From an uncultured Bacteroidia bacterium (lineage in GTDB: Bacteria > Bacteroidota > Bacteroidia > Bacteroidales > Prolixibacteraceae): 64,000 bases of DNA. The stretch lies in NCBI GenBank assembly GCA_903905505.1, contig CAIVGL010000126.1, positions 1-64,000 on the forward strand, read 5' to 3'. The translations under genes were made by a program, and so were the position numbers. This document shows, piece after piece, positions 3,682 through 12,427 of this stretch. Within the stretch, counting starts at the first letter, position 1. Each line of letters opens with the position of its first letter. The notes below the pieces were generated by a model. That model searched no databases and was not told the DNA's origin. It worked only from the letters and a program-made list of their open reading frames with translations.

Positions 3682-5628
3682 ATGGATAAACATCATAGCG
3701 GCATAGAAAAAGTATCGTTTGCCGGCTTAATTATCACGTTAGGAATCGTTTTTGGTGATCTTGGAACAAGTCCATTATACACCATGAATGCGATTATTAA
3801 TAGTTCAACCGAGTTTTCAAAAGAGTTGATATATGGAGCCTTATCGTGTGTCTTTTGGACTCTTACCCTACAGACAACTATTAAATATGTGATCATTACT
3901 CTCCGTGCAGACAACCATGGGGAGGGTGGTATTTTTGCCCTTTTTGCGCTTATCCGAAAGAAAAATAATTGGGTTGCCATTCTAACGTTTATTGGTGGTA
4001 GTGCACTTCTTGCTGATGGGGTTATTACTCCTTCTATTACCGTTACTTCAGCTGTTGAAGGGTTGAAGTTGATATCTCCTCATATACCTGTCGTTCCTGT
4101 AGTCCTTTCAATATTGACGATCTTATTTTTCTTTCAGCAATTTGGTACTGGATTTATGGGTAAAGTTTTCGGGCCTGTCATGTTTGTCTGGTTTACGATG
4201 CTCGCTGTCTTAGGTCTGAATTTTCTGGTAAAGGATCCAAGTATTTTTGCCGCAATTAATCCAATCTATGCCATCCGATTTATAACTGAATTTCCGAATG
4301 CAGTAATTCTCCTTGGTGCGGTGTTTCTTGCCACTACTGGTGCTGAAGCATTATATTCCGATCTTGGTCATTGTGGCATCAAAAACATTCGTATCTCTTG
4401 GATTTTTGTCAAGATCGCCTTGTTGTTAAACTATTTTGGACAGGGTGCTTATCTGCTTAATCACCTAGATCATATGAATAGTGCAAATCCATTTTTTGCC
4501 ATTATGCCTGCCTGGTTTCTGTTGCCTGGTGTAATCATAGCAACAGCTGCCGCTATTATAGCTAGTCAGGCTTTGATTAGTGGTTCTTATACCTTAATCA
4601 GTGAAGCCGTTTCTTTGAATATTTGGCCGAAGATTAGAATTAGTTATCCTACCGATATTAAGGGACAGGTTTATGTCCCTTTCGTTAACTGGTTTCTATG
4701 GATTGCCTGTACTTTCGTGGTGATCTATTTTGGTGAATCATCTAAGATGGAAGCCGCTTATGGACTCTCCATTACCATTACCATGATTATGACAACCTCG
4801 CTGTTGGCCTATCATCTGAGAAGTCGTAAAGTTCATATGGCATATATCATCTTACTTCTAACCGTATTCTTATCTATTGAAGGTACATTCTTATACGCGA
4901 ATCTTCATAAGTTTGCCAATGGTGGATGGTTAACTATTGCCTTGGCTTTATTGTTCTTTGTCGTGATGTATGGTTGGTATTTCGGACGTAAGATTAAAAA
5001 TAAATACATCAGTTTTGTTAACCTAAATAAGGATCCGGGGATCTTCAGAGCCTTAAGTGCAGATACCTCTGTGCCGAAGATTGCAACCAATCTAATTTAC
5101 ATCACTAAGGCAAATCGTCGGGATCAAATCGAATCAAAAATTATGTATTCGATTTTCAATAAACATCCTAAAAGAGCAAATACCTACTGGTTTCTTCATA
5201 TCGATAATTTAGAGACTCCAAATACGTTTGAATATGTGATTCATCATGTCATTCCTGGGGTTTTAATTAAAGTCGACTTTAGATTAGGCTTTAAGATTGA
5301 ACGGAAAATAAACCTCTATTTTAAAGAGGTTATAGATGATTTAGTGAAAAGTGGTGAGATCAGTATGGTTAGTCAGTACGACTCATTAAAATCACACAAT
5401 ATTCCAGCTGATTGCCTTTATGTAAATCTTGATCGGATACTCATTAGTGATTATCAGTTGCCTCTTCAGCAGAGTTTTATCATGGCATTGCATAACTTTA
5501 TTCGTAAAGTGAGCATCAATGATGTGAAAGCTTTGGGACTTGACTCTTCAAATGTTATTGAAGAAAAGGTTCCAATTGTGATCGAACAACAGCTGAAAAA
5601 GCGTATCGTTCGGGTAACTACTCCATAG
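3682..5628 (+). CDS. kup: Low-affinity potassium uptake protein, KUP/HAK/KT family
   Basis: This 648-residue inner-membrane protein is a proton-coupled K+ importer. The N-terminal 430 residues contain about twelve hydrophobic helices and the family motifs GIVFGDLGTSPLYTMNAI (near residue 22) and GGIFALFALI. GVITPSITVTSAVEGL and TTGAEALYSDLGHCG are also typical. A soluble C-terminal region of about 200 residues follows. Length fits the family (about 620-650). The gene is monocistronic, with a 250-bp upstream gap holding a candidate promoter at 3603-3636. I saw no recognised riboswitch upstream. Confidence 0.95.
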   Translation: MDKHHSGIEKVSFAGLIITLGIVFGDLGTSPLYTMNAIINSSTEFSKELIYGALSCVFWTLTLQTTIKYVIITLRADNHGEGGIFALFALIRKKNNWVAILTFIGGSALLADGVITPSITVTSAVEGLKLISPHIPVVPVVLSILTILFFFQQFGTGFMGKVFGPVMFVWFTMLAVLGLNFLVKDPSIFAAINPIYAIRFITEFPNAVILLGAVFLATTGAEALYSDLGHCGIKNIRISWIFVKIALLLNYFGQGAYLLNHLDHMNSANPFFAIMPAWFLLPGVIIATAAAIIASQALISGSYTLISEAVSLNIWPKIRISYPTDIKGQVYVPFVNWFLWIACTFVVIYFGESSKMEAAYGLSITITMIMTTSLLAYHLRSRKVHMAYIILLLTVFLSIEGTFLYANLHKFANGGWLTIALALLFFVVMYGWYFGRKIKNKYISFVNLNKDPGIFRALSADTSVPKIATNLIYITKANRRDQIESKIMYSIFNKHPKRANTYWFLHIDNLETPNTFEYVIHHVIPGVLIKVDFRLGFKIERKINLYFKEVIDDLVKSGEISMVSQYDSLKSHNIPADCLYVNLDRILISDYQLPLQQSFIMALHNFIRKVSINDVKALGLDSSNVIEEKVPIVIEQQLKKRIVRVTTP

Positions 5629-5773: not shown

Positions 5774-6619
5774 ATGGAAACAGACCCACTTTATGATCAA
5801 GTTTCGTTCAAAGTAAGTAAGCTAGTTACTCGAAGCTATAGTACTTCCTTTTCGATTGCCGTTAGCTTCCTAGATAAGGAAGTTCAAATGGCCATACATA
5901 GCATTTATGGTTTCGTCCGACTCGCCGACGAGATTGTCGACACCTTTTTATTACACGATAAGGAGACTCTATTAGATAAATTTGAAGCGGATTATTACGA
6001 AGCATTTAAAAATGGAGTGAGCTTAAATCTGGTGCTTCATTCCTTCCAATTGACCGTTAAGAAATATGCTATTTCTGATGATCTGATTCAAGCTTTCCTC
6101 TCGAGCATGCGATCTGATCTGCATAAAACAAAATATACCACCAAGTCAGAGATCGATCACTATATTTACGGTTCAGCCGATGTGGTAGGATTGATGTGTT
6201 TATCGGTATTTACCAATGGTGATCGGCAAATGTTTGAGTCGTTAAAAGATTCAGCTATGCGCCTAGGCTCTGCATTCCAGAAAGTTAATTTTTTGCGTGA
6301 TCTTCGCAGTGATACCGAATTTCTAGAACGTCAATATTTTCCAGAGATGGGACAAGGGGCTTTTAATGAGGAGATGAAATTGACCATAATAAAAGATATT
6401 GAGCAAGATTTTAAAGCTGCTCGGATCGGAATTTTGAACTTGCCTGTCAATTCGCAGCTTGCCGTTTTAATTGCATATTATTACTATCAACGGCTGGTTG
6501 TTTTGCTTAAAAACTCCCCTGCTGCTGAGGTTTTGGCTGGCAGGATAAGAGTCTCTGGATTTAGAAAAACGTTGCTGCTGACGAAGGCAATTTTGGTGCA
6601 TAAGCTGAAAATGATTTAA
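5774..6619 (+). CDS. crtB: Phytoene synthase (squalene/phytoene synthase family)
   Basis: The enzyme joins two geranylgeranyl diphosphates head to head into phytoene, the first step committed to carotenoids. Both aspartate-rich Mg-diphosphate motifs are visible: DEIVD at residues 52-56 and RDLRSD at 175-180. The segment YSTSFSIA (residues 22-29) and QYFP after the second motif are also family features. At 281 residues it is a normal length. It is the first gene of a seven-gene set running the same way with gaps of about 10 nt or less (5774-11909), including a lycopene cyclase and CrtI, which favours phytoene over squalene or dehydrosqualene as product. Confidence 0.92.
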   Translation: METDPLYDQVSFKVSKLVTRSYSTSFSIAVSFLDKEVQMAIHSIYGFVRLADEIVDTFLLHDKETLLDKFEADYYEAFKNGVSLNLVLHSFQLTVKKYAISDDLIQAFLSSMRSDLHKTKYTTKSEIDHYIYGSADVVGLMCLSVFTNGDRQMFESLKDSAMRLGSAFQKVNFLRDLRSDTEFLERQYFPEMGQGAFNEEMKLTIIKDIEQDFKAARIGILNLPVNSQLAVLIAYYYYQRLVVLLKNSPAAEVLAGRIRVSGFRKTLLLTKAILVHKLKMI

Positions 6620-6629
6620 TTAGCATCTT

Positions 6630-7331
6630 ATGTCTGTTTATCTAGCACTTGAAATTCTAACCATCTTTATTCCATTACTGTTTAGTTACGACCGTAACCT
6701 AAAATTCTATCCAAAGTTAAAAGTGGTGGGGCTCTCCTTGATTCTAGTTGGATCTCTATATATCATAGGCGATATTTGGTTTACAAAATCTGGGTTCTGG
6801 GGATTTAATGAGAAATATCACTCTGGTATCATGATCTTTAACCTTCCACTAGAGGAGTGTTTGTTTTTTATCGTTATCCCTTACGCAAGTTTATTCCTGC
6901 ATGATACACTTGTTTACCTCTTCCCAAAGGCCGTATTGAGTCGTTTGGCAACTCAGGTGCTCTCCCTAGTACTGTGTTTTAGTTTGCTTGCTCTGGTAAT
7001 TTTTAATCTCAATAAAGCCTATACCGCAATTTACTTTTCAGTAGCTTTACTCTCAATAATTTGGGCCTGGATAAGTGCATTCGAATTGTTGCGTCGTTAT
7101 TATTTGACTTTTTGTGTTATCTTAATTCCATTCTTCTTGGTTAATTCGGTCTTGACAGGTAGCTTTATCGCCGAACCTGTTGTCTGGTATAATAATGGTC
7201 AGAATCTTGGAATTCGAATAGGAACAGTCCCCGTTGAAGATATTAGTTATGCGTTTAGCTTGATCTTGCTTAATCTCATTGTCGTCCATCGCTTGATCGG
7301 TTGGTTTAATCGAAATTCATTAAAAGGATAA
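6630..7331 (+). CDS. Lycopene cyclase, CrtYcd type (heterodimeric-type cyclase halves fused)
   Basis: This 233-residue membrane protein with about seven hydrophobic helices holds two copies of the small lycopene cyclase repeat. The first has WGFN and the PLEE motif at residues 73-76; the second has GIRIGTVPVED with PVED at 201-204. These acidic motifs are the catalytic signature of the CrtYc/CrtYd family, here joined in one chain as in archaeal and Bacteroidota enzymes. It should close one or both ends of lycopene (or a derivative) into beta-ionone rings. Whether it makes one ring or two cannot be told from sequence. The CruF-like gene next door suggests one end stays open. Confidence 0.85.
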   Translation: MSVYLALEILTIFIPLLFSYDRNLKFYPKLKVVGLSLILVGSLYIIGDIWFTKSGFWGFNEKYHSGIMIFNLPLEECLFFIVIPYASLFLHDTLVYLFPKAVLSRLATQVLSLVLCFSLLALVIFNLNKAYTAIYFSVALLSIIWAWISAFELLRRYYLTFCVILIPFFLVNSVLTGSFIAEPVVWYNNGQNLGIRIGTVPVEDISYAFSLILLNLIVVHRLIGWFNRNSLKG

Positions 7332-7341
7332 TTCAGCACTT

Positions 7342-7995
7342 ATGATTACTAAAGTTTCCAACTTTTTAATTCAAAATAAACTACGCGTAATCGGCATTGT
7401 CATCTTGTTTTATGTCGTTGGAGTTGTTGGCATTGCGACTTCCCAAACCCTTTTTATTACCTTGTTTCCTTTTGCTTTGGTCTTGAGTTTTTTAACGATG
7501 ATGCTTTACGATAGTTCTTCATCTTCGTCACAAGCGATAACCTGTTTTAGTGTTATTTTCTTGGTTAGTCTTGTCCTTGAAATCATAGGCGTAAATACAC
7601 ACCAAATCTTTGGATCGTATAGCTATGGTGAGGCCTTGGGCTTTAAATTGTTACATACACCGTTGTTGATTGGTCTTAATTGGGTTATGCTAGTCTATAG
7701 TAGCGCCTCCTTGGCTCAAATGTTTGTAAAAGAAAATTGGTCGCAGGTTATAGTGGCATCTGTTTTTATGGTTGTCTATGACTTTGTTTTAGAGCAGGTT
7801 GCCCCATTTTTGCAAATGTGGTCATGGGATCAAGGTGTTGTGCCATTGAAGAATTACTTAGACTGGTTTATCATCGCCTTACTATTTCAGGCTATTTTAA
7901 AACGAATGAGAATCAAGACCAATAATCCTGTTGCTTCTGCGATATTTGTGGCTCAATTTGTTTTCTTTGTTGCGATTCTAATCCTAATCAAATAG
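7342..7995 (+). CDS. cruF: Carotenoid biosynthesis protein, CruF-like (carotenoid 1',2'-hydratase family)
   Basis: This 217-residue integral membrane protein has six or seven hydrophobic segments and the polar signature of the CruF/bisanhydrobacterioruberin hydratase family: EIIGVNTHQIFGSYSYGEAL around residues 74-93, TPLLIGLNW, and the VYDFVLEQVAPFLQMWSWD segment around 145-163. CruF adds water across the 1',2' double bond at an open carotenoid end, giving the 1'-hydroxyl that is then glycosylated. That fits the acyltransferase and glycosyltransferase genes following. The assignment rests on motifs and neighbours, not on a search. Confidence 0.75.
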   Translation: MITKVSNFLIQNKLRVIGIVILFYVVGVVGIATSQTLFITLFPFALVLSFLTMMLYDSSSSSSQAITCFSVIFLVSLVLEIIGVNTHQIFGSYSYGEALGFKLLHTPLLIGLNWVMLVYSSASLAQMFVKENWSQVIVASVFMVVYDFVLEQVAPFLQMWSWDQGVVPLKNYLDWFIIALLFQAILKRMRIKTNNPVASAIFVAQFVFFVAILILIK

Positions 7996-8000
7996 AATTT

Positions 8001-8630
8001 ATGCTCCTAAAAGCTCACCATCATTTTTTGATCTATCCCTTTTTTAAGTTCTATGCTGGGTGGATTATAAAAAGGCATTTTGGGCAAGTGCAAGTAGTAG
8101 AGAACTTTGTTGATAAAGGTTCTTCTGTTGTTCTATTGGCAAATCACTTTAGCTGGTGGGATGGATTTTTTGCGATGTATCTTAATGTGAAGGTCCTTAA
8201 GCGCAAGTTCCATTTTATGATGCTGGAGGAGCAATTGAAAAAATTCTCGTTTTTTAATCAGACAGGTGGATTTTCAGTCCGCAAAAATTCACGTAGCCTT
8301 CTCGAATCTATTCATTATACCGTTGAAATACTCTCTGAAAAGCAGAATATGGTTCTTCTCTTTCCTCAGGGAAAGATAGAAACTTCATACAAAAATGAAT
8401 TTCAATTTGAAGCTGGAATTGGACGGATTTTATCTAATGTTAAGACCCCTGTTCAGATCCTATTTATGGTTAACCTTATCGATTATTATTCGAGTCGTAA
8501 GCCCGGTATTTATATGCATGTTTCAGAGTATACAGGAGATAAATTAGATGCTCAATCGTTAAATCAAGCCTATAATTTATTCTTTAATGAATGTGTTCAG
8601 ACTAATGCCTTAAAGCACCAGGACCAATGA
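8001..8630 (+). CDS. Lysophospholipid-acyltransferase-like (PlsC family) acyltransferase in carotenoid operon
   Basis: The 209-residue protein shows the PlsC-type catalytic motif NHFSWWD (residues 48-54, H-x4-D) and an FPQGKIE block at 121-127 in place of the usual FPEG. It lacks long membrane helices, so it is probably membrane-associated. PlsC-family enzymes move acyl chains to hydroxyl groups. Sandwiched between the CruF-like gene and a glycosyltransferase, it most likely acylates the sugar of a carotenoid glycoside, as CruD does in green sulfur bacteria. It could instead be an ordinary phospholipid enzyme. The 3' end overlaps the next gene by 4 nt. Confidence 0.78.
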   Translation: MLLKAHHHFLIYPFFKFYAGWIIKRHFGQVQVVENFVDKGSSVVLLANHFSWWDGFFAMYLNVKVLKRKFHFMMLEEQLKKFSFFNQTGGFSVRKNSRSLLESIHYTVEILSEKQNMVLLFPQGKIETSYKNEFQFEAGIGRILSNVKTPVQILFMVNLIDYYSSRKPGIYMHVSEYTGDKLDAQSLNQAYNLFFNECVQTNALKHQDQ

Positions 8631-9718
8631 TGACCTTGTCTCTTATGGTATTGGGTTTTGCTCTAGTTCAATTTAGTGTCGCATTATGTAATACGATCTT
8701 TAGAACCAATATTCCAATTGGTCTGCCTTCTTCAGATTCTTTGATCTCAATCTTAATCCCTGCGCGCAACGAAGAGCATAATATCGCTCGGCTTTTAGGT
8801 GATCTTGTCGAATCTAAAGATGCTCATGTGGAGATTTTAGTGTTGGATGACGACTCCGATGATCAGACTGCTGCGGTAGTTGCTCGGTTTGCAAAAGAGG
8901 ATTCTCGAATTAATCTTATTCGTTGCGATAATCTTCCTGCTGGTTGGTTGGGTAAGAATTTTGCGTGCTATAGCTTATCTAAACAGGCTCGAGGTGATCA
9001 CTTCTTATTTCTGGATGCGGATGTTCGGATTAAACCTGAATTTATAAGGTCAACTGTTGATTGGATGCAAAAGAATAACCATGGGCTCATCTCCGTTTTT
9101 CCGAAACAAGAAATGCACACTGTTGGTGAGAAGCTTACCGTGCCTATTATGAATTATATCCTACTTACGCTCCTTCCACTTCCTTTGGTTCGATGGTCGA
9201 AATATGCCTCCCTGGCTGCTGCAAATGGACAGTTTATGTTGTTTGAATCATCAGTTTATCAGGAGCTTAATCCACATGAGAAAGAGAAGGGAAATAAGGT
9301 TGAAGATATTGCTATCGCCCGTTATTATAAAACGAATAAGATTTCAGTGGCCTGTTTATTAGGAGATGAATCTGTTCGATGTCGAATGTATGATGGATAT
9401 AGCGATTCAATCAAGGGGTTTTCGAAAAACATAACTGAATTCTTTGGTGGATCATTGGTTATTGCAATATTATTCTGGTTTATGACTACTTGGGGGTTTA
9501 TTTCGGTAGTAATTTCATTTGGAATCAAACTTTCCATTGCTTATCTTGTTGTATTAATTAGTACAAGAGTGCTGGTTTCAATAGCTAGCAATCAAAATAT
9601 ATTTATTAATCTCCTCTATCTAATTCCACAGCAATTAAATATTGGGATTATTTTAATAATGGCATTTAAGTCGAAGTATTTTACTGGATTTCTATGGAAA
9701 GGTCGCGCTATTCAATAG
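8627..9718 (+). CDS. Family 2 glycosyltransferase, probable carotenoid glycosyltransferase (CruC-like)
   Basis: This 363-residue protein has one N-terminal hydrophobic helix, a GT-A domain (ILIPARNEEHNIARLL from about residue 42; DDD at 74-76; LDADV with DAD at 130-132) and two or three C-terminal hydrophobic helices. That layout is typical of membrane-bound GT2 enzymes that glycosylate lipids, including CruC and 4,4'-diaponeurosporenoate glycosyltransferases. The start overlaps the acyltransferase by 4 nt and its end overlaps the TPR gene by 25 nt, pointing to translational coupling. Context suggests it glycosylates the 1'-hydroxyl made by CruF. Donor sugar unknown. Confidence 0.8.
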   Translation: MMTLSLMVLGFALVQFSVALCNTIFRTNIPIGLPSSDSLISILIPARNEEHNIARLLGDLVESKDAHVEILVLDDDSDDQTAAVVARFAKEDSRINLIRCDNLPAGWLGKNFACYSLSKQARGDHFLFLDADVRIKPEFIRSTVDWMQKNNHGLISVFPKQEMHTVGEKLTVPIMNYILLTLLPLPLVRWSKYASLAAANGQFMLFESSVYQELNPHEKEKGNKVEDIAIARYYKTNKISVACLLGDESVRCRMYDGYSDSIKGFSKNITEFFGGSLVIAILFWFMTTWGFISVVISFGIKLSIAYLVVLISTRVLVSIASNQNIFINLLYLIPQQLNIGIILIMAFKSKYFTGFLWKGRAIQ

Positions 9719-10431
9719 CTCTATTACTTGTTTGGTTCACCTTGAGCCAAAGTATGGCTAACACTAAAAGTGATATTTACAACGCTTTCATTACGAGCTC
9801 TATGGGTGACTGGAAGGCTATCATTGATAGCTTACAAAGCACTGGAGTGAAAGATGATTCGAGTAAATTAGAACTGCTTAATTATCAATATGGTTACATT
9901 GGTTGGTGCATTGGGGAGAATCAGAAAGACCAAGCTAGTCAGTATCTTGATCTTGCAGAGAAGAATTTAAACACATTCACCAATAAACAATTGTATGCTG
10001 CTAAGCTGAGTAGTTATCGATCAGCTTTTTATGGTTTTCATATTGGTCTTAACATCTTGTTGGCTCCTTGGTATGGATCTAAAAGTATAGCATGTGCAAA
10101 AAAGGCAGTTTCACTTGATTCGCAAGATTATTTTGGATATGTTCAATTGGGAAATGTTTATTTTCATGCTCCAAGCCTGATGGGCGGCGATAAGTCGGAG
10201 GCCATTCAGAGTTATATCAAAGCTCGATTGAAATTAGAACGAGATAGGAACGAGATACTCTTAGATTGGAATTATTTGAGTTTACTGGTAACCATCGCAC
10301 AATGTTATGAATCAACAGGTGATTTAGGAAAGGCAAAAAATAGTTATGAGGAAATCTTAACGATTGAGCCTCACTTTAATTGGGTTAAAATAGAGTTGTA
10401 TCCGAATTTGATAAAAAAATTAAAACACTAA
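9694..10431 (+). CDS. Secreted TPR-repeat protein of the carotenoid operon
   Basis: The 245-residue product has a likely signal peptide (SIALLLVWFTLSQSMA, about residues 7-22). The rest looks like helix-turn-helix repeats, including YFGYVQLGNVYFHAP and the C-terminal AQCYESTGDLGKAKNSYEEI, a clear TPR. A periplasmic or envelope location is inferred. It lies between the glycosyltransferase (25-nt overlap) and crtI (gap of 2 nt), so it is surely cotranscribed. No catalytic motif is visible. It may be a scaffold, or help move the finished glycosylated carotenoid; both ideas are guesses from position. Confidence 0.7.
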   Translation: MERSRYSIALLLVWFTLSQSMANTKSDIYNAFITSSMGDWKAIIDSLQSTGVKDDSSKLELLNYQYGYIGWCIGENQKDQASQYLDLAEKNLNTFTNKQLYAAKLSSYRSAFYGFHIGLNILLAPWYGSKSIACAKKAVSLDSQDYFGYVQLGNVYFHAPSLMGGDKSEAIQSYIKARLKLERDRNEILLDWNYLSLLVTIAQCYESTGDLGKAKNSYEEILTIEPHFNWVKIELYPNLIKKLKH

Positions 10432-10433
10432 AA

Positions 10434-11909
10434 ATGGGAAAAAGTGTACTCGTTGTAGGTGCAGGACTTGGAGGCCTTGCTACCGCATTAAGATTGGCAA
10501 AAAAAGGATATGAAGTCGAGATTATTGAGAAAAATAGCCAGGCTGGCGGTCGACTCAATCAATTAAAAAAGGATGGCTTCACCTTTGATATGGGTCCTAG
10601 CTTTTTTAGCATGTCTTATGAATTTAAGGAGTTTGCAAAAGATTGCAACATCGAACTTCCATTTAAATATGTGGAGCTTGATCCTCTCTATACCGTTAAT
10701 TTCAGTCGGAGTCCAAAGACTTACCGACTCTATAAAGATATCCACAAGCTAGCGGAGCAATTCAAAGATGTAGAGCCTGACTTTGAGGTTAAAATGCGTA
10801 AATACCTTAAAAACGGAAAATCGTTATTCGACGATACGGTAGATATCGTTATAAAGGATAATTACAACACTGTTTTTTCGTATTTATTAACCCTAATGAA
10901 GGTAAATCCAAAACATTTACCCGTGTTGTTTCGTAATTTCTGGCAACAGGTTTGTCGTTATTTTTCGTCAGACGATGCTCGTGAGATTATCTCGTTAGTG
11001 GCATTTTTTTTGGGTCGCACTCCATTTGATACTCCAGCTGTTTATACCTTACTCTCGTATACCGAATTTCAACACGATGGGTATTACAACGTCGAAGGTG
11101 GGATGTATAAGATTGTTGAAGGGATTTTAGGGGAGCTTAAAAAAGAGAACGTCAAGATCACCTACAATACTGAGATCGTTAATTGCATTTCAAGTGGCAA
11201 AAAATTAGAGGCCTTAGTCGATCAGAATGGAAAGAGCTGGCATCGTGATATTATGGTTGTGAATAGCGATGCGGCTTCCTTTAGGGGTAAGATATTTAAA
11301 AGAGCGAAGTTCTCGGAAGCTAAGTTAGATAAGATGGAATGGACAATGGGACCTTTGACGATCTATCTTGGATTGAAGTGTAAACTTCCACAAGTAGAGC
11401 ACCATAATTATTACCTTGGTGATAACTTTAAAGATTATGCCAATAAAATATTTCAGGCCTCTGGGACACTTGAAAAACCTTACTATTATGTTAATGTTCT
11501 GTCGCGTAACAATGCGGACTGTGCGCCTGAGGGGTGTGAGAGCTTGTTTTTTGTATGCCCGGTGCCGGATCTGAGATTTAAGAAAAGCTGGGAGGATAAA
11601 GAGGAGATTGTCAATAGTATTATTGCGGATTTCTCAGCTCGAATTGGTCAAGATATTGTTCCTGAGATCATCTCTAAAACTAGCTACTCTCCAATCGATT
11701 GGGAAAGTAAGTTTAATTTACATCGCGGTAGTGGGCTGGGATTATCGCATAAAATGTTTCAAATTGGAGCATTTCGACCTAAGAATTTTGATGAGGTATT
11801 TAAAAACGTTTTCTATGTCGGTGCCTCAACAGTGCCAGGTACTGGATTGCCTATTACCATGATTAGCTCAAAATTAGTCGTTAAACGGATTGAGAAATTA
11901 AAGAACTAG
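10434..11909 (+). CDS. crtI: Phytoene desaturase family protein
   Basis: This 491-residue FAD-dependent oxidoreductase starts with the dinucleotide-binding motif VVGAGLGGLATALRLAKKGY (GxGxxG at residues 9-14) and ends with the CrtI signature FYVGASTVPGTGLPITM. The internal YYNVEGGMYKIVEG block is also typical. CrtI converts phytoene to lycopene in four desaturations. It is the only desaturase in the cluster, and no separate 3,4-desaturase (CrtD), hydroxylase (CrtZ) or ketolase (CrtW) is present here. Two nt separate it from the TPR gene. A role in a later desaturation cannot be excluded, but as the sole copy it probably does the main reaction. Confidence 0.9.
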   Translation: MGKSVLVVGAGLGGLATALRLAKKGYEVEIIEKNSQAGGRLNQLKKDGFTFDMGPSFFSMSYEFKEFAKDCNIELPFKYVELDPLYTVNFSRSPKTYRLYKDIHKLAEQFKDVEPDFEVKMRKYLKNGKSLFDDTVDIVIKDNYNTVFSYLLTLMKVNPKHLPVLFRNFWQQVCRYFSSDDAREIISLVAFFLGRTPFDTPAVYTLLSYTEFQHDGYYNVEGGMYKIVEGILGELKKENVKITYNTEIVNCISSGKKLEALVDQNGKSWHRDIMVVNSDAASFRGKIFKRAKFSEAKLDKMEWTMGPLTIYLGLKCKLPQVEHHNYYLGDNFKDYANKIFQASGTLEKPYYYVNVLSRNNADCAPEGCESLFFVCPVPDLRFKKSWEDKEEIVNSIIADFSARIGQDIVPEIISKTSYSPIDWESKFNLHRGSGLGLSHKMFQIGAFRPKNFDEVFKNVFYVGASTVPGTGLPITMISSKLVVKRIEKLKN

Positions 11910-11941: not shown

Positions 11942-12427
11942 ATGGAGGGAAGTGTTAACTATCGGCAAGCCTTAACTAAGGCAATGGCCATGTGTAGTCA
12001 GTCGGAACGTTGTCAGTTTGACGTAAAGGCCAAACTGCGTCTTTGGGAGCTTTCTGAAGTTGAGATCTCTACGGCTATTAAATATCTTGTTAAGGAGCGG
12101 TTTTTGAATGATGAACGATACGTCCGTTTTTATGTCAATGATAAGCTCCGATTCAATAAATGGGGGAAGATTAAGTTGGCCTATATGCTGCGGCAGAAAC
12201 AGATTTCTGATGCATTAATTCAGACCGTATTAGGTGAAATAAATGCCGATAATTATGCGCAGATTCTTCACGAATTACTAAAGGCCAAAGTAAAGTCAGT
12301 GAAAGGAACTTCAAATTACGAGCGTAAAGCTAAGCTTGCCGTCTTTGCCCAGAGTCATGGTTTTGAAGGGGAGCTTTCATTTCGAATTGCAGGACAATTG
12401 GTTGGAAATGACAATCTCGAAGAGTGA
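11942..12427 (+). CDS. recX: Regulatory protein RecX
   Basis: The 161-residue protein is built of three-helix repeats, with the typical segments QALTKAMAMCSQSERCQFDVKAKL, IKYLVKERFLNDERYVRFYV and KWGKIKLAYMLRQKQIS near residues 10-95. RecX caps and limits RecA filaments. Bacterial RecX proteins are commonly 150-260 residues. It follows crtI by 32 nt and may be read through from the carotenoid operon, although its function is unrelated. recA is not adjacent, which is common in this phylum. Confidence 0.85.
   Translation: MEGSVNYRQALTKAMAMCSQSERCQFDVKAKLRLWELSEVEISTAIKYLVKERFLNDERYVRFYVNDKLRFNKWGKIKLAYMLRQKQISDALIQTVLGEINADNYAQILHELLKAKVKSVKGTSNYERKAKLAVFAQSHGFEGELSFRIAGQLVGNDNLEE

Follow-up and report, generated by a model that had tools for sequence, protein, structure and literature searches.

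In green sulfur bacteria, gamma-carotene-type pigments are hydroxylated, glycosylated and acylated by a pathway that includes CruC and CruD and that uses the CrtC hydratase and the CruA/CruB cyclases, not CruF. Salinixanthin, which is produced by Salinibacter ruber and by Rhodothermus marinus, is a carotenoid glucoside fatty-acid ester with a single ring; the R. marinus study assigns a CrtY cyclase and a CrtO ketolase to this organism and reports a CruF or CrtC homologue as missing (PMC5822342). Within the Bacteroidota, the flexixanthin genes of Algoriphagus comprise crtB, crtI, a fused crtYcd, cruF and crtW together with crtD and crtZ, the product being a free xanthophyll and the word acyltransferase not appearing in the text of that paper (PMC10784355). 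The seven-gene myxol cluster of Nonlabens spongiae also leads to a monocyclic product and contains a CruF proven to be a 1,2-hydratase in E. coli, and no gene for glycosylation or acylation is named for it (PMC11855829). In this study, we analyzed a stretch of 64,000 nucleotides (the window) from an uncultured Bacteroidia bacterium of the Prolixibacteraceae, which carries a seven-gene carotenoid operon on the + strand at positions 5774-11909. The operon is genuine and belongs, as a typical example, to a widely distributed gene set whose products are very probably acyl-glycosyl carotenoids; as judged from sequence, its own pigment is probably a monocyclic compound of this class, of salinixanthin type. 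New are an overlooked conserved component with tetratricopeptide repeat (TPR) fold, a bridge to the Salinibacter cluster, and a ketolase gene distant from the operon.

The genes in operon order are crtB, crtYcd, cruF, plsC, a family 2 glycosyltransferase gene (GT2), TPR and crtI, separated by 10, 10, 5, -4, -25 and 2 bases according to the open reading frame coordinates. A first-pass annotation of the window had described six of them as a tight unit, and this description holds, as they are open frames in one direction which nearly abut, all exceed the Pfam cut-offs and keep their order in relatives; the recurrence of this order at the relatives' loci also means that the operon is not due to chance. 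The gene list of that annotation was incomplete, however, missing the TPR gene at 9694-10431. Its comparison with green sulfur bacteria, to which it had ascribed CruF, extends to the logic of hydroxylation, glycosylation and acylation only. With the salinixanthin producers the locus shares the predicted product class and, in S. ruber, the clustering of a CruF-family gene, crtB, a PlsC-type gene, GT2 and TPR. It differs from R. marinus in that the genome has CrtYcd and a distant CrtW-type gene, with no CrtD match. The genome is a 2.9 Mb draft of 129 contigs (97.3% complete), with the window on contig C126.

The conserved gene order is opened by crtB (5774..6619, + strand, 281 amino acids (aa)), which encodes a phytoene synthase (PF00494, SQS_PSY, 139.7 bits); no other gene of the genome matches PF00494. 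The fused heterodimer-type lycopene cyclase gene crtYcd (6630..7331, +, 233 aa) matches PF18916 (Lycopene_cyc) with 117.1 bits in two stretches, indicating two CarR/Lycopene_cyc domains in a single chain, and reaches 91.1 bits against TIGR03462 (cut-off 39.4). The next gene, cruF (7342..7995, +, 217 aa), is assigned to the carotenoid 1,2-hydratase family by PF04240 (Caroten_synth; 89.6 bits, cut-off 25), and its product would hydrate the psi end group. At the end of the operon, crtI (10434..11909, +, 491 aa) encodes a phytoene desaturase, possibly also a 3,4-desaturase, with 68.3 bits for the Amino_oxidase Pfam and 329.1 bits for TIGR02734 (cut-off 238.1).

Between cruF and TPR lie the two genes proposed for the decoration of the pigment. 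The putative carotenoid-glycoside acyltransferase (8001..8630, +, 209 aa; PF01553, 46.3 bits) has a PlsC fold with H49-x4-D54 and P122/G124 invariant among 23 aligned sequences, and it is distinct from the housekeeping phospholipid enzyme, whose model TIGR00530 gives 24.9 bits, far under 102.95. The putative carotenoid glycosyltransferase (8627..9718, +, 363 aa; PF00535, Glycos_transf_2, 78.2 bits) has a GT2 fold with a DxD motif, D130-A131-D132 and E226-D227 being invariant among 28 aligned sequences. Sequence searches of the PDB returned no relative for the PlsC profile and only the general GT2 domain for the GT2 profile.

For analysis of the recurrence of this gene set, 101 genomes including the window's own were searched; PF04240 was present in 55. 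All 54 other cruF loci were fetched and used for building profiles; several are cut by contig ends, so that absences in these stretches are weak. GT2, plsC and TPR accompany cruF in 40 of the 55 loci; GT2 and plsC without TPR occur in two, TPR without GT2 and plsC in seven, plsC only in one, and none of the three in five. The TPR gene is located 3' of GT2 in 39 of 42 loci from the window's genome and its relatives, or in 40 when all frames are searched by profile (adding L064), and the two genes overlap in up to 35 of 39 loci, an upper figure as it was derived from first possible start codons. Two layouts dominate. One is crtB-(idi)-(crtZ)-crtYcd-cruF-plsC-GT2-TPR-crtI, as in the window; in the other, crtYcd, crtB and crtI diverge from a group made up of a second desaturase gene, cruF, plsC, GT2 and TPR. 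The one such second desaturase that was tested passes the CrtD model (541 vs 500 bits).

A GT2-profile scan of named genomes extended the picture. Among the best 80 of 570 confirmed stretches, a selection biased to close GT2 relatives, 81 GT2 frames were found, with plsC near 74 and cruF near 72; TPR follows within 3.5 kb 3' of 68 frames, three being cut by contig ends and ten lacking it. These best 80 loci include records of Draconibacterium, Aquimarina, Porphyromonas and Ignavibacteria, and Draconibacterium as well as Gaoshiqia are placed in the Prolixibacteraceae. Among the cultured carriers, Draconibacterium sediminis (L110) additionally possesses crtZ, and Gaoshiqia sediminis (L183) possesses crtD. 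In a phylum sample of 395 evenly drawn genomes, 107 contain a PF04240 match and 94 a match to the TPR profile, although many of the latter are weak and do not imply orthology.

In nine genomes of the phylum sample, roughly 2 to 3 kb separate the PF04240 gene and a weak TPR match (28 to 44 bits), and all nine loci were fetched. Six (L188-L191, L193, L194) show the order cruF-crtB-plsC-TPR-GT2, which differs from that in the window. In L187, GT2 is outside the stretch, with a match some 17 kb beyond it; neither the plsC nor the GT2 profile gave a match in the fetched stretch of L192, and in that of L195 no plsC and no TPR frame was called. Genome G247 is S. ruber DSM 13855, its second contig being 100% identical to plasmid NC_007678 over the 10,000 bases compared, and here the five genes form one cluster (L189, C1 about 1780784-1785116). 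With 199 bits against the operon GT2 profile, the clustered GT2 far exceeds every other match of this genome (49.7 for the second best); this GT2 lies among crt genes in an organism that produces an acyl-glycosyl carotenoid. The TPR proteins of the window's relatives and of the Salinibacter type are matched in a profile-profile comparison (98.5%, P 1.9e-15). Also, crtB of S. ruber has the CruF-family gene next to it. The cassette puts this gene and GT2 into the crt cluster of S. ruber, whereas a hydratase homologue is reported as missing from its relative R. marinus (PMC5822342). The linkage in Salinibacter supports a hydroxylated, glycosylated and acylated product, as predicted from the gene content.

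Genes elsewhere in the genome (G000) were addressed by a genome-wide search covering the CrtI/CrtD family, crtZ and CrtW. The CrtI family has one gene over the cut-off and no CrtD was seen, two further matches spanning only 35 to 69 residues at the flavin adenine dinucleotide-binding start. The crtZ profile was silent in the genome and in the near relatives G004 and G007; it matched in 12 of 26 genomes, four of the same genus among them. The first-pass annotation had listed no ring hydroxylase and no CrtD, and both statements, with crtZ as the ring hydroxylase searched for, now extend from the window to the genome. Its statement that there is no ketolase applies to the window but fails for the genome bin, an outcome it had allowed for, as contig C74 carries a CrtW-type gene (81998-82651, 223 aa). 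The encoded protein is 47% identical to the CrtW query from a relative's cluster, has NF045690 (CrtW) as best NCBIfam match (217.1 bits, E 2.3e-64) and scores 79.5 bits against PF00487 (FA_desaturase). HDAMHG, H-H-H and EHH, which we take to be the CrtW histidine boxes, are invariant in six aligned sequences. A search for rhodopsin (PF01036) gave no match in 61 genomes, with controls equally silent, so it is uninformative on a rhodopsin antenna.

On this basis, CrtB would form phytoene, CrtI would convert phytoene to lycopene, CrtYcd would close one beta ring, and CruF would hydrate the open end at its 1',2' double bond. GT2 would then glycosylate the 1'-hydroxyl and the PlsC-type enzyme would esterify the sugar with a fatty acid; a 4-keto group would probably be added by the CrtW-type ketolase encoded off-operon, and the exported TPR protein would probably come into play once synthesis is complete, beyond the inner membrane. 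Every catalytic step, the identities of sugar and acyl chain (neither readable from sequence) and the TPR role are what we infer from gene identities established by profile, the conserved linkage, the absence of crtZ and crtD matches, and the crtW match in the bin. The best reading of the product is a 4-keto-1'-hydroxy-gamma-carotene acyl glycoside, near salinixanthin, perhaps lacking the 3',4' double bond. The monocyclic, 1'-hydroxylated, glycosylated and acylated pigment predicted by the first-pass annotation is supported by the domain matches and the cruF/plsC/GT2 linkage from relatives to S. ruber, and the distant ketolase changes the predicted product.

Several points weigh against this assignment. 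The pathway is predicted here from genes, and the likeness of GT2 and PlsC to CruC and CruD of Chlorobaculum is one of pathway logic. PlsC proteins of the window's relatives are only remotely similar to that of S. ruber (hhalign 96.5%, P 9.2e-10). Three proteins also stay under curated or equivalog cut-offs, which determined their names: CruF reaches 65.3 bits against the haloarchaeal model TIGR03460 (cut-off 154.7) and is therefore named as a member of the CruF family, not as the haloarchaeal equivalog; GT2 has CruG (NF045692) as its best NCBIfam match with 109.6 bits (cut-off 600) and is not filed as CruG; and the C74 protein is below the 350 bits demanded by NF045690, hence the wording CrtW-type, though the CrtW inside a relative's cluster is likewise under this cut-off (284.8). 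Finally, crtW is outside the operon, alone among unrelated genes on C74, in a draft of 129 contigs with an estimated contamination of 2.88%.

The alternative that survives best concerns the open end of the pigment. Salinixanthin has a 3',4' double bond, for which CrtD or a bifunctional CrtI is needed. If CrtI also inserted this bond, a torulene-type acyl glycoside would result, and with CrtW essentially salinixanthin, a possibility we regard as somewhat unlikely but serious. The best NCBIfam match of CrtI is in fact NF058655 (CrtID, bifunctional phytoene/3,4-desaturase) with 329.7 bits, level with the general model, and 22 of the 39 crtI-bearing cruF loci have no crtD in the fetched stretch, while 17 have one. 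Bifunctional enzymes of this type have been demonstrated in Haloarcula japonica (PMC11946383). However, the score is far under the equivalog cut-off of 640 bits, and the CrtI of a relative with a separate crtD behaves alike (323.9 bits for CrtID, 333.8 for the general model), so the sequence leaves 3,4-desaturation undecided.

Less probable, though still to be reckoned with, is the product of the first-pass annotation, a 1'-hydroxy-gamma-carotene acyl glycoside lacking the keto group, with CrtW either unused on the pigment or a binning contamination. The isolated position of crtW on a separate contig fits this product, as does the genome-wide lack of crtZ and crtD matches. Against it stand CrtW homologues placed inside the crt clusters of relatives, and the base composition of C74: tetranucleotide correlations with the window are 0.536-0.648 for three stretches of C74 and 0.517-0.719 for other contigs of the genome, compared with 0.378-0.439 for other genomes and 0.601 for the same-genus G005. 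Since C74 is within the range of the genome's own contigs, contamination is not indicated, though still possible.

The keto-bearing monocyclic acyl glycoside would also be wrong if CrtYcd closed both ends, yielding mainly beta-carotene, or canthaxanthin with CrtW, and leaving only a minor fraction to CruF, GT2 and PlsC. Flavobacterial CrtY alone in E. coli does give mainly beta-carotene, but with CruF in the same host it gives mainly 1'-hydroxy-gamma-carotene (PMC11855829). This result makes crtYcd plus cruF fit a monocyclic 1'-hydroxy compound; also, crtYcd is missing from a number of otherwise similar clusters in which cruF is retained, and cyclization of both ends is quite improbable. That GT2, PlsC and TPR serve another glycolipid and merely share a transcript with crt genes is least probable of all, because although the seven loci with TPR and cruF but without GT2 and plsC show that the cassette is not indivisible, at least one of crtB/crtI/crtD/crtY/crtW occurs in the fetched stretch around GT2 at every one of the 42 loci from the window's genome and relatives and for 72 of the 81 named frames (best 80 of 570 loci), and the linkage of cruF/plsC/GT2/TPR with crt genes extends to S. 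ruber.

The gene for the exported TPR-fold protein (9694..10431, +, 245 aa), proposed here as a pigment carrier, shows TPR matches and a hydrophobic N-terminus; it lies between GT2 and crtI and overlaps GT2 by 25 bases. The hydrophobic N-terminal stretch is found in all 33 aligned members, with a lipobox in two, and in six of seven members of the Salinibacter-type group as called; for the seventh, the start was called too far upstream. In the seven loci without GT2 and plsC, the TPR gene stays with cruF and would thus track the hydroxylated carotenoid, not the sugar step alone. An AlphaFold model (predicted local distance difference test 92.2, predicted template modeling score 0.86) matched HusA (Z 16.7; 188 aligned, root-mean-square deviation 3.1), a TPAT protein (16.3), Tp0956 (16.0) and BstC (15.0). 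BstC is a sterol-binding protein whose gene lies with sterol genes, and the TPR-like fold of HusA has a hydrophobic groove that accommodates porphyrins (PMC10942540, PMC6173696). The protein shares with this haemophore and this sterol-binding protein the all-helical TPR-like fold and the export, and their ligands are hydrophobic, as that of the protein here would be. Generic TPR proteins matched equally well (APC6 TPR, Z 17.3; TTC0263, Z 16.9), so the fold leaves ligand carrier versus protein scaffold undecided, and a role as heme or sterol carrier deduced from the fold alone was dropped.

By analogy with the role proposed for BstC with sterols and that of HusA with porphyrins, a pigment carrier is our leading guess. 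Tentatively, the protein might be a dedicated, widely conserved carrier or receptor that takes the finished acyl-glycosyl carotenoid from the inner membrane, probably to the outer membrane; we consider this possible, but have more doubt than belief in it. We know of no described system that explains how membrane pigments of the size of acyl-glycosyl carotenoids reach their site in the envelope. In the literature, we found neither a trafficking component encoded alongside a bacterial carotenoid pathway nor a TPR gene in a carotenoid operon, which is a weak absence due to thin coverage of subscription journals; one tetratricopeptide paper concerns a different family (PMC12419801). If the proposal is true, the protein would offer a direct handle on pigment delivery, in a range spanning Salinibacter, Draconibacterium and oral Porphyromonas.

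In the relatives G009 and G003, cruF and TPR are intact and the rest of the operon has decayed. Ratios of nonsynonymous to synonymous substitution rates (dN/dS) between these two are 0.105 for cruF and 0.167 for TPR; those of the crtY relic are 0.82 to 1.14 in the three closest comparisons and 0.18 to 0.52 against more distant species where computable. A function of cruF, with or without TPR, independent of the pathway was considered and dropped, since G009, G003 and also G013 hold a further CrtI-family gene beside a divergent squalene/phytoene synthase. Such a pair, with the second CrtI-family gene at about 410-445 bits, was observed in G003, G009, G013, G008 and G001, and likewise in G012, G034, G050, G067 and G082 (all within L089-L098). 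The divergent synthases are mostly about 310-330 aa, and the one gene of these loci tested against NCBIfam matched no model at E 1e-10. In G043 (L063, single contig), cruF (7880-8533) is the sole intact gene of a decayed crt locus, in a genome where PF00494 has no match and no CrtI reaches the cut-off; dN/dS is 0.23-0.25 for the crtD relic compared with 0.059 for the intact pair, and 0.04-0.06 for cruF compared with 0.025, and cruF seems to be still under selection there without carotenoid synthesis. In G016 (L052), whose genome has no PF00494 match, cruF is the lone gene of the set at the operon locus next to kup, with a small unrelated gene after it.

Porphyromonas canoris (L142), P. gingivicanis (L180) and Porphyromonadaceae COT-184 (L137) show the layout crtB-(idi)-cruF-plsC-GT2-TPR-crtI, with the cyclase absent from the stretch. 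These layouts predict acyclic acyl-glycosyl carotenoids in anaerobes, although Porphyromonas-type anaerobes are not, to our knowledge, known as carotenoid makers; carotenoid synthesis in Porphyromonas was not found in the literature, again a weak absence given the thin coverage of subscription journals. Throughout the Bacteroidota, anaerobes included, the cassette would serve as a sequence signature of carotenoid glycosyl esters. Another observation concerns L199-L204 (G103, G130, G319, G354, G185, G460), in which PF04240 is found in frames of 584-924 aa; such frames match the crtB profile and are apparent CruF-CrtB fusions.

Promoter and terminator scans of the operon gave chance-level results only. 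Its upstream neighbor is a kup-type potassium transporter gene ending at 5628. Downstream, 32 bases 3' of crtI, recX (11942..12427, +, PF02631) is adjacent in several relatives, too; it is a neighbor on the same strand that may share the transcript of the operon while standing outside the pathway.

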